64,000 bases of DNA, taken from the NCBI GenBank assembly GCA_030149325.1, contig JASBRS010000040.1, forward strand, positions 1 to 64,000. The letters are read 5' to 3'. Below the pieces are notes generated by a model that saw only the letters and a list, made by a program, of their open reading frames with translations, ran no database searches and was not told where the DNA came from. Source of the stretch: Deinococci bacterium (GTDB lineage Bacteria; Deinococcota; Deinococci; Deinococcales; Trueperaceae). A program made the translations under genes and the position numbers. Positions 8,363 through 10,796 of the stretch are shown piece after piece (the stretch's first letter is position 1; each line of letters begins with the position of its first letter).

Positions 8363-9019
8363 TCAGGGGCGCTCGCCGGTCAGCCAGAACATCACGTGTT
8401 CGTCGACGTTCTCGAGGTGGTCGCCGAGGCGCTCCAGGTAGCGAGCCACCGCCAGCAACTGGGTGGCGCGGCCGATGGTCTCGGGGTCCTCGATCATGTA
8501 GGTGAGCAGCTCGCGTTGGATCTGCTCGTAGAGGTCGTCGATCTCGCGGTCCATGGCGTGGGCGCGGCGGGCGGCCTCGACGTCGGCCTCCGCCATCGCC
8601 TTCATGGTGGTCTCGATCATGGTGCCGAGCACCTCGAGGATGCGCTGCATGTCGAGGTACTTCTTGAGCGGCGGCTGTTCGGCCAGCTTCACCGCTGCGC
8701 GGGCCACGTGCTCGGCGTAGTCGCCGGCGCGCTCGATGTCGGCGAGCGACTGGTAGGCGGCGCCGAGGAAGCGCAGGTCACGGGCCGCCGGCTGTCGCCG
8801 TGCGATCACCGTGAGGATGCGCAACTCGAGCTGAGCCTGCAGGGCGTCGATCCGTTCGTCGTTGGCGACGCAGCGCTCGGCCGAGGCCAGGTCGGACTCG
8901 ATCAGCGCGCGACGGGCCAGCTCGCACCCCTCCCGCACCTGGCTCAGCATGCGGACCAGCGAGGCGTTGATGTCCTGGAGGTCTTGGTCCAGCTGCGTCA
9001 TGTCGGACGGCCGCATCAT
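8363..9019 (-). CDS. phoU: Phosphate signalling complex protein PhoU
   Basis: A 218-residue all-helical protein built of two similar three-helix bundles, each with the metal-binding pattern of PhoU (DIERAGDYAEH in the first half, LERLGDHLENV in the second). PhoU links the Pst phosphate transporter to the PhoR-PhoB pair and keeps the regulon off when phosphate is plentiful. It is divergent from the response regulator gene and shares with it a repeat-rich region. The ATG at 9019 overlaps the likely -10 box (TATGAT), so the true start may be the ATG at 9001 (MTQLDQ). No pst genes are in the window. Confidence 0.93.
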   Translation of the reverse strand: MMRPSDMTQLDQDLQDINASLVRMLSQVREGCELARRALIESDLASAERCVANDERIDALQAQLELRILTVIARRQPAARDLRFLGAAYQSLADIERAGDYAEHVARAAVKLAEQPPLKKYLDMQRILEVLGTMIETTMKAMAEADVEAARRAHAMDREIDDLYEQIQRELLTYMIEDPETIGRATQLLAVARYLERLGDHLENVDEHVMFWLTGERP

Positions 9020-9031
9020 ACCGCACAGTCT

Positions 9032-9097
9032 GACGCCCTCCGGTCAGGGCGTCGTCAGGCCGGGTCTGACGCCGCCATGACGACGCCTCCGTATCAT
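9032..9097. promoter_or_regulatory. Probable Pho-box region between phoU and the phoB-like gene
   Basis: Two pairs of direct repeats with an 11-bp period lie here: GTCAGG at 9043 and 9054 (facing phoU as CCTGAC) and TGACG at 9067 and 9078 (facing phoB). The second pair gives 7-mers CTGACGC and ATGACGA with a 4-bp gap, 8 bp before the -10 box TATCAT (9092-9097). This is the geometry of an E. coli Pho box replacing a -35 hexamer. An inverted repeat (GACGCCCT, 9032-9039, with AGGGCGTC, 9046-9053) overlaps it. Confidence 0.5.
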
Positions 9098-9103
9098 GGG
9101 CGC

Positions 9104-9136
9104 ATGCCGAGGCGGACGCGGGCGGTGGGGTCGTGA
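9104..9136 (+). CDS. Possible 10-codon leader reading frame before phoB
   Basis: ATG at 9104 lies exactly 6 bases after the TATCAT box, the spacing seen for leaderless genes in this window. The frame encodes MPRRTRAVGS and its TGA overlaps the GTG start of the response regulator (GTGA). Ribosomes loading on the message end would be delivered to the phoB start, which has no Shine-Dalgarno sequence of its own. The peptide itself may have no function. This is a positional inference without protein evidence. Confidence 0.4.
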   Translation: MPRRTRAVGS

Positions 9137-9822
9137 GCGGTGCGACCGTGCTGCTCGTCGAGGACGACGAGACGGTCCGGGAGCTGGTGGCCTACCACCT
9201 CTCGCGGGCTGGCCTCCACGTGGTCGAGGCGGGCGCCGCCGAGGAGGCGTGGGGTCGTCTCGACGACGCCGATGTCGTCGTCCTCGACTGGATGCTCCCC
9301 GGCGAGTCGGGGCTGGCATGGCTGGCGCGCCTGCGGGAGGTGCGCGGGCAGGAGCTGCCGGTCCTGATGCTCACGGCGCGTGCCCGCGAGGTCGACCGGG
9401 TCGAGGGCCTGGAGCGCGGCGCCGACGACTACCTGGTCAAGCCCTTCAGCGCCGCCGAGCTGGTGGCGCGGGTGCGGGCGCTGCTGCGCCGCGCACCGCC
9501 GGGCCACCGCCTCGAGCTCGGATCGCTGACGGTCGATGCCGACGAGGCGCGGGTGACGCTGGCCGGACGCGAGCTCACGCTCACGCGCCGCGAGTACGAG
9601 CTGCTGGCCTTCTTGGCCGCCAACCCCGGCCGCGTGTTCGAGCGATCGGAGCTGCTCGACCGCGTGTGGGGCGAGGACTTCGTGGGCTCGGAGCGGACCG
9701 TCGATCAGCACGTGGCGCAGTTGCGGGCGCACCTCGGAGCGGCCTGGATCGAGACGGTGCGGGGTCGTGGCTACCGGCTGTCCGACCCCGAGCGGGCGGG
9801 CTCCGGCCGGGGCCCGGCGTGA
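9133..9822 (+). CDS. phoB: Response regulator, OmpR/PhoB family
   Basis: A 229-residue regulator with an N-terminal receiver domain (acid pocket E10-D11-D12, phosphorylated Asp52 in LDWMLPG, Lys in LVKPF) and a C-terminal winged-helix DNA-binding domain (LTRREYELLAFLAANPGRVF to VRGRGYRL). It is divergent from phoU and followed by a histidine kinase with a GTGA overlap, so it is most likely PhoB, activator of phosphate-starvation genes. The DNA-binding repeats in front of it suggest autoregulation. GTG 9133 is the first usable start. Receiver and effector domains are certain; the phosphate role rests on context. Confidence 0.88.
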   Translation: MSGATVLLVEDDETVRELVAYHLSRAGLHVVEAGAAEEAWGRLDDADVVVLDWMLPGESGLAWLARLREVRGQELPVLMLTARAREVDRVEGLERGADDYLVKPFSAAELVARVRALLRRAPPGHRLELGSLTVDADEARVTLAGRELTLTRREYELLAFLAANPGRVFERSELLDRVWGEDFVGSERTVDQHVAQLRAHLGAAWIETVRGRGYRLSDPERAGSGRGPA

Positions 9823-10796
9823 GCGTGGCCCCTCCGGACGCGATGAGCGCGGCGCTCCTCGACGCGCTGGAGGAGGGGGTGGTGGTGGTCGACGGCGGGA
9901 ACGTGGCGTTCGTCAACCGTGCCGCTGCAGCCCTGCTGGAGGTGGACCCCCGCCAGGCGGCGGGGCGGCCGCTGATCGGCGTGCTGCGCGACCATCGCCT
10001 GGAGGAAGCGCTGAGCGAAGGGCGTCCGGTGGAGATCGAGACGCGCGGCCGCCGGATCCGGGCCGTCCCCGTCACGGGGGCACTGCTCCTGCGCGACCTG
10101 ACGGAGCTGAGGCGAGCGCAGGAGGACGCCCGTGAGCTGCTGGCGGTGCTGTCGCACGAGCTCAGGACGCCGGTGACCGCCATCCGGGCCACGCTCGAGG
10201 CCCTGCAGGACGAGCCCCCCGAGACGCTGCGAGCGCGCTTCCTGGGGCGCGCGACGCAGGAGTCGGAGCGACTGGTGAGGCTGCTGGAGGACCTGACCGT
10301 GGAGGTGCGACCGCCGAGGGAGCGCAGCCTGGTCCTGGACGAGCTGGTTCGCCGCGCCGCCGGCGTGGTGCAGCCGGCGCTGCAGCGGCACGGCGTGCGG
10401 TTGCGCCTCGAACTCCCCGACATCGAGCTCTGGGCCGACGAGGACAAGCTGCTCCAGGTCCTCATCAACCTCCTCGAGAACGCCGCCGTGCACGGACCCG
10501 ACGGCGGCGAGGTGACGGTGGCCGTGGAGGCGGGGGTCGATCAGGTGCGGATCGAGGTGCGCGACGAAGGCGAGCCCCTCGACCCCGCACGCGTGGCCGA
10601 GCTGTTCGAGCCGCACAGCCAGGGGGACTCCGCCAAGGCGAAGGGCACCGGTCTGGGCCTCTACATCGTGCGCTCGATCGCGCAGCGCTGGGGTGGTGAG
10701 GCCTGGGGCGGTCCGCGGCACGACCGCCCGGGTCGGCCCGGCAACGCCTTCGGCGTCAGCGTGCCGCGGGCGCGCCCCGTGACCGGATCGTCGTGA
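9819..10796 (+). CDS. phoR: Histidine kinase, PhoR-like, without membrane segments
   Basis: A 325-residue kinase. A small PAS-like domain (about residues 10-95) leads into the dimerisation helix with the phosphorylated His113 (LSHELRTP), then the ATPase domain with the N box (LLENAAVHG), a G1 region (DEGEPLD) and a G2 box (GTGLGLYIV). PhoR proteins usually have one or two N-terminal membrane helices, and none is present here, so the protein should be cytoplasmic and must sense its signal through PhoU, the PAS domain or both. It starts at a GTG overlapping the stop of the regulator gene, so the two are coupled. Confidence 0.85.
   Translation: MSVAPPDAMSAALLDALEEGVVVVDGGNVAFVNRAAAALLEVDPRQAAGRPLIGVLRDHRLEEALSEGRPVEIETRGRRIRAVPVTGALLLRDLTELRRAQEDARELLAVLSHELRTPVTAIRATLEALQDEPPETLRARFLGRATQESERLVRLLEDLTVEVRPPRERSLVLDELVRRAAGVVQPALQRHGVRLRLELPDIELWADEDKLLQVLINLLENAAVHGPDGGEVTVAVEAGVDQVRIEVRDEGEPLDPARVAELFEPHSQGDSAKAKGTGLGLYIVRSIAQRWGGEAWGGPRHDRPGRPGNAFGVSVPRARPVTGSS

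Follow-up and report, generated by a model that had tools for sequence, protein, structure and literature searches.

The divergent phoU and phoB genes

The phoU gene and a gene encoding a PhoB-like regulator diverge in a 3.04-Mb draft genome, on the minus and plus strands, respectively. They are separated by an intergenic region of 80 bp. The window, that is, the whole 64-kb stretch of DNA that was analysed, contains the following features at this locus.

8363-9019, minus strand: phoU (TIGR02135, 191.9 bits, cut-off 130.25)
9027-9032, minus strand: CAGACT, probable -10 element of a PhoB-dependent phoU promoter, 10 bp past the second TGAC; the phoU start codon, ATG at 9019, follows by 7 bp
9058-9043, minus strand: candidate PHO box of phoU, CTGACGACGCCCTGAC, two half-sites with TGAC cores and an 11-bp period
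9066-9081, plus strand: candidate PHO box of phoB, CTGACGCCGCCATGAC, a pair of half-sites with the same 11-bp period
9092-9097, plus strand: TATCAT, -10 element of the predicted phoB promoter, 10 bp past the second TGAC, with no -35 hexamer
9104-9136, plus strand: putative leaderless upstream ORF of ten codons (MPRRTRAVGS*), predicted from sequence only
9133-9822, plus strand: PhoB-like response regulator of the OmpR family (Response_reg and Trans_reg_C domains), start codon GTG at 9133
9819-10796, plus strand: PhoR-like histidine kinase (PAS, HisKA and HATPase domains), with a 4-base overlap with phoB

The phoU gene is the only member of its family found by a PF01895 search of the genome. The regulator belongs to the OmpR/PhoB family, as both the receiver domain (PF00072) and the winged helix (PF00486) score above the cut-offs. 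Its best NCBIfam model among 94 families is PhoB (TIGR02154, 230 bits), although the cut-off of 296.2 is not reached. No membrane helix is predicted in the PhoR-like kinase, and the same holds for most of its relatives; thus phosphate must be sensed indirectly. PhoR of D. radiodurans is also short, 331 aa (PMC11219805).

The intergenic region contains two pairs of direct repeats, GTCAGG at 9043-9048 and 9054-9059, and TGACG at 9067-9071 and 9078-9082, both with a period of exactly 11 bp. The minus-strand pair is directed toward phoU, and the plus-strand pair toward phoB. These coordinates, periods and opposite directions, as well as the position of TATCAT, had been given in the preliminary description of this DNA, and all of them agree with direct examination of the sequence. 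The distance of 8 bp to TATCAT given there is correct if counted from the 7-mer ATGACGA, and equals 10 bp from the second TGAC. A PHO box is defined as two 11-nt direct repeats, and its consensus is species-dependent (PMC4415409). Such pairs of 11-nt units are present here, with half-sites CTGAC and ATGAC rather than the CTGTCAT of E. coli. The reading of the pairs as PhoB sites in the preliminary description is supported, with the correction that the core is CTGAC instead of the enterobacterial one.

Conservation of the repeats and the candidate regulon

Taken alone, the 11-bp geometry is not significant, as it is not enriched in the 64-kb window: 127 five-mers are repeated at 11 bp (168 in dinucleotide shuffles), and there are 4 clusters of such repeats (7.6 in shuffles). 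Hence the significance of the repeats rests on their recurrence in related genomes and elsewhere in the same genome.

The box was sought within 150 bp upstream of phoB at 30 loci from relatives and the present genome. The pattern TGAC-N7-TGAC was found at 26 of them, with 0.1 expected from shuffles, and upstream of divergent phoU genes at 16 of 19 loci, with 0.08 expected. The exact box is absent from the remaining four phoB loci (L012, L014, L018, L025). Every other gap length between 2 and 15 separates two TGAC in at most three of the sampled phoB and phoU loci. Outside the box, alignment columns are near chance identity (27% in the upstream flank), with the exception of the base preceding the box and the -10 element. 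Thus the conservation of the box is not due to overall similarity; the relatives are non-independent samples, although their flanks are saturated. The boxes of relatives retain the orientation toward their genes. At nearly all box-bearing loci they stand at a fixed distance from a -10-like hexamer, in the place of the -35 element: at phoB, a hexamer of the TAnnnT type lies 9-11 bp past the second TGAC, and at phoU, a hexamer of the CAnnCT type lies 10 or 11 bp past it.

It is hardly credible that the repeats arose by chance in GC-rich DNA, or that they are arms of a hairpin formed by GACGCCCT (9032-9039) and AGGGCGTC (9046-9053): five-mers repeated at 11 bp are indeed common in the window, though fewer than in shuffles, but the fixed-spacing recurrence at the phoB and phoU loci of relatives suffices in itself to reject the chance reading, which we took seriously, and the arms of the inverted repeat at 9032-9053, a candidate hairpin or terminator, were not seen in the relatives.

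The divergent position of phoU had been considered less usual. In Trueperaceae it is the rule, being observed at 19 of 21 loci, whereas elsewhere in the order phoU lies downstream of phoB-phoR, the box at phoB being retained.

A genome search with the loose pattern TGAC-N7-TGACS was too unspecific (25 matches, 4 in the control). Specificity was gained by requiring a -10 element and barring G before TGAC. The resulting full promoter pattern was H-TGAC-N6-H-TGAC followed after 9-12 bp by YAnnnT, and the reversed pattern served as a control. It has four matches in the 3.04-Mb genome and none in the control. All four precede phosphate genes, namely phoU, phoB, the pstSCAB operon and an ugp-like operon. 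The outcome named as refuting in the preliminary description, a lack of the motif at further phosphate genes, is therefore not observed. The pstS gene (TIGR00975, 356 bits) is followed by pstC, pstA and pstB. The ugp-like ABC operon encodes two permeases and a binding protein whose best NCBIfam models are UgpA, UgpE and UgpB, all of them below the cut-offs; a similar operon in the related genome G013 also carries the box. Among relatives, pstS is preceded by the box in 15 of 17 genomes, with unchanged spacing to a -10-like hexamer.

A de novo search with the same pattern in 12 genomes of the family produced 49 matches, against one in the control. About 30 of these precede phosphate genes: phoB (9), phoU (1), pstS-type genes (10), ugpB (3), ugpA-like permeases (3) and phosphonate-binding proteins similar to PhnD (4), some of the assignments being made by resemblance to scanned genes. 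A UgpB among the products of these genes scores above the curated cut-off. The other 19 or so matches precede genes without an obvious tie to phosphate, and those upstream of oligopeptide- and iron-type binding proteins and of DUF6454 were left out of the phosphate count. The genes recovered from the motif alone are the classical Pho regulon.

In the present genome, no box was found near the three other response regulators identified (contigs C31, C2 and C80). Sites of the type H-TGAC-N6-H-TGAC on contigs C5, C48 and C54 were rejected as apparently intragenic or situated at gene edges, and those before hemA (C27) and near pilT (C55) as having no -10 element at the right distance. One more such site (C16:95960; L059, L198), upstream of an ABC operon with a solute-binding protein, is followed by TAGGAT after only 7 bp. 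A gene of genome G018 whose product has a similar N-terminus is preceded by a regular box (L104). It is possible that the C16 operon is a further member of the regulon.

In other families of the order there is a second 11-bp direct repeat, similar to GTGACG-N5-GTGACG, with TAnnnT 9-11 bp later (L204-L213, L222, L223; sites in G028, G030, G032, G034 and G038). It precedes genes of lipoproteins and exported proteins and of a 61-aa protein, and probably marks another OmpR-family regulon. At L083 (from 1501) and L100 (to 2501), the sequence TTGACACCCCGTTGACACCC followed by TA(C/A)GCT precedes the gene of a 64-94-aa protein with distant likeness to this 61-aa protein.

The existence of this second motif in related genomes, together with the fact that every known OmpR/PhoB-family site consists of direct repeats with roughly such a period (PMC4832192), leaves room for an explanation in which the repeats at phosphate genes are bound by another regulator of the family, and PhoB uses a different site. 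We consider it very unlikely. The element tracks the gene of PhoB itself, phoU, pstS, ugp and phn-like genes, which is the pattern that an autoregulated PhoB would produce, whereas the GTGAC motif precedes the lipoprotein and exported-protein genes instead. It is almost certain that the two pairs of repeats in the phoU-phoB intergenic region are predicted docking sites of PhoB, standing back to back.

Candidate promoters and start codons of phoU and phoB

The CAGACT hexamer upstream of phoU, the probable -10 element, is weak. At 10 of 19 loci (L006, L009, L011, L013, L015, L017, L019, L020, L021, L026), an extended -10 element TGnTAnnnT overlaps the first start codon of phoU, and a second start codon follows about 8 bp later. 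NTA predominates as the second codon of phoU, also where codons ending in A make up 2-6%. Accordingly, PhoB might bind here with a mainly repressing or neutral effect of the phoU-side box, phoU being transcribed from the extended -10 element farther downstream. This arrangement seems rather unlikely: the CAnnCT hexamer is conserved 10 or 11 bp from the box, the start codon lies about 5-8 bp behind it, the spacing is the same as at phoB, and in the window the extended element is degraded. The observations suggest nested phoU promoters in the relatives, one PhoB-dependent and one basal.

At phoB, the ATG at 9104 lies 6 bp past TATCAT and opens the micro-ORF, whose stop codon TGA overlaps the GTG of phoB as GTGA (9133-9136). 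The phoB transcript probably starts at this ATG. A start codon 5-8 bp past the -10 element opens a micro-ORF at 12 of 21 phoB loci of the family; these ORFs end 4, 8 or 11 nt into phoB and encode unrelated peptides. At L013, L014 and L017, for example, the start codon following the -10 element is that of phoB itself. The micro-ORFs terminate at NTGA in seven loci and at an out-of-frame TAA inside phoB in five loci of four genera (L004, L005, L007, L008, L012). As this TAA is formed by a T-ending codon, while third-position T accounts for 1-9% in these genes, selection for the overlap of the micro-ORF and phoB is suggested, the count being small and the regularity noticed after the fact.

About 40% of genes in Deinococcus-Thermus were predicted to be leaderless, TAnnnT preceding their start codons by about 12 bp (PMC3160421). 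The starts of phoB, phoU or the upstream ORFs 5-8 bp past the -10 elements conform to this. What differs is that the putative leaderless ORF is in many cases distinct from phoB, being a micro-ORF that overlaps this gene and lies under a candidate PHO box. Translational coupling via NUGA overlaps has been described in M. tuberculosis, as in uPPE2-PPE2 (PMC11260477). There, as here, the upstream ORF is short, its stop overlaps the next start by 4 nt, and a Shine-Dalgarno sequence is absent; in contrast to it, there is no riboswitch here, the predicted transcript start coincides with the beginning of the micro-ORF, and the coupling is putative. Tentatively, and with somewhat less than even confidence, we suggest that PhoB autoregulation in Trueperaceae operates via the leaderless micro-ORF, the mRNA beginning at its start codon and phoB being translated mainly by termination-reinitiation. 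In that case, a single module would combine the autoactivation of transcription with the delivery of ribosomes.

Proposed regulation and comparison with known PHO boxes

Taken together, the data are consistent with two divergent class II activator promoters, of phoB-phoR and of phoU, in each of which a single PHO box would replace the -35 element and which PhoB would drive under phosphate scarcity. We assign to this model as a whole a probability of roughly 0.92. Under phosphate scarcity, the cytoplasmic PhoR-like kinase would phosphorylate PhoB, and a head-to-tail dimer of the latter would occupy CTGAC-N6-(C/A)TGAC and recruit RNA polymerase to a -10 element of the TAnnnT type 10-11 bp downstream. 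PhoB-family dimers are known to bind direct repeats head to tail (PMC4832192). The plus-strand box would provide positive autoregulation of phoB-phoR, and the minus-strand box would provide negative feedback via phoU; in E. coli, PhoU is needed for switching PhoB off (PMC4415409). The same site elsewhere in the genome would induce pstSCAB and the ugp-like transporter. Ribosomes would probably be loaded at the leaderless ORF of ten codons and reach phoB via the GTGA overlap.

The site agrees with the general definition of the PHO box and is predicted to work like one, as an operator. The candidate box of the CTGAC type recurs before classical phosphate genes across Deinococcota, and we have not found this spelling described. 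In the open-licence literature searched, we found neither an earlier description of a PHO box in Deinococcota nor one of a phosphate operator in D. radiodurans, whose phoR mutants are reported to be radiation-sensitive (PMC11219805). The prediction of a phosphate-starvation operator and regulon for Deinococcota is directly testable, in D. radiodurans as well.

In an alignment of ten PhoB orthologs, the recognition helix RTVDQH[VI][AT]QLR is nearly invariant, whereas the aligned RegX3 and OmpR-family sequences mostly have D-V-H-V-[KR]-R-LR at the same positions. The residues of TVDQH[VI][AT]QLR may be the cause of the changed spelling of the half-sites. If so, the CTGAC box and the different helix would be a natural case of regulator-operator co-variation.

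The PHO box of E. coli stands in place of the -35 element. It consists, like the boxes described here, of two 11-bp direct repeats, CTGTCAT-N4-CTGTCAT, strictly spaced from the promoter core, and is found at phoB, pstS and ugpB (PMC4415409, PMC10294691, PMC4832192). This strict spacing is required in E. coli (PMC10294691). The differences are as follows. Firstly, the half-site is CTGAC instead of CTGTCA, one base apart in an ungapped comparison (CTGACA and CTGTCA). Secondly, the A/T-rich spacer is absent. Thirdly, phoU, which closes the pstSCAB-phoU operon in E. coli, is separate from the pst genes here and carries a divergent box of its own. Finally, the recognition helix differs from that of E. 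coli PhoB in being TVDQH[VI][AT]QLR.

The PhoP box of Streptomyces, GTTCACC-N4-GTTCACC, is similar in that the genome is GC-rich, the direct repeats have a period of 11 bp, and the phosphate regulator reading them is of the OmpR family (PMC4415409, PMC4832192), but its half-site is GTTCACC, whereas here it is CTGAC. Thus the spellings of PHO boxes, CTGTCAT and GTTCACC, would be extended to CTGAC.
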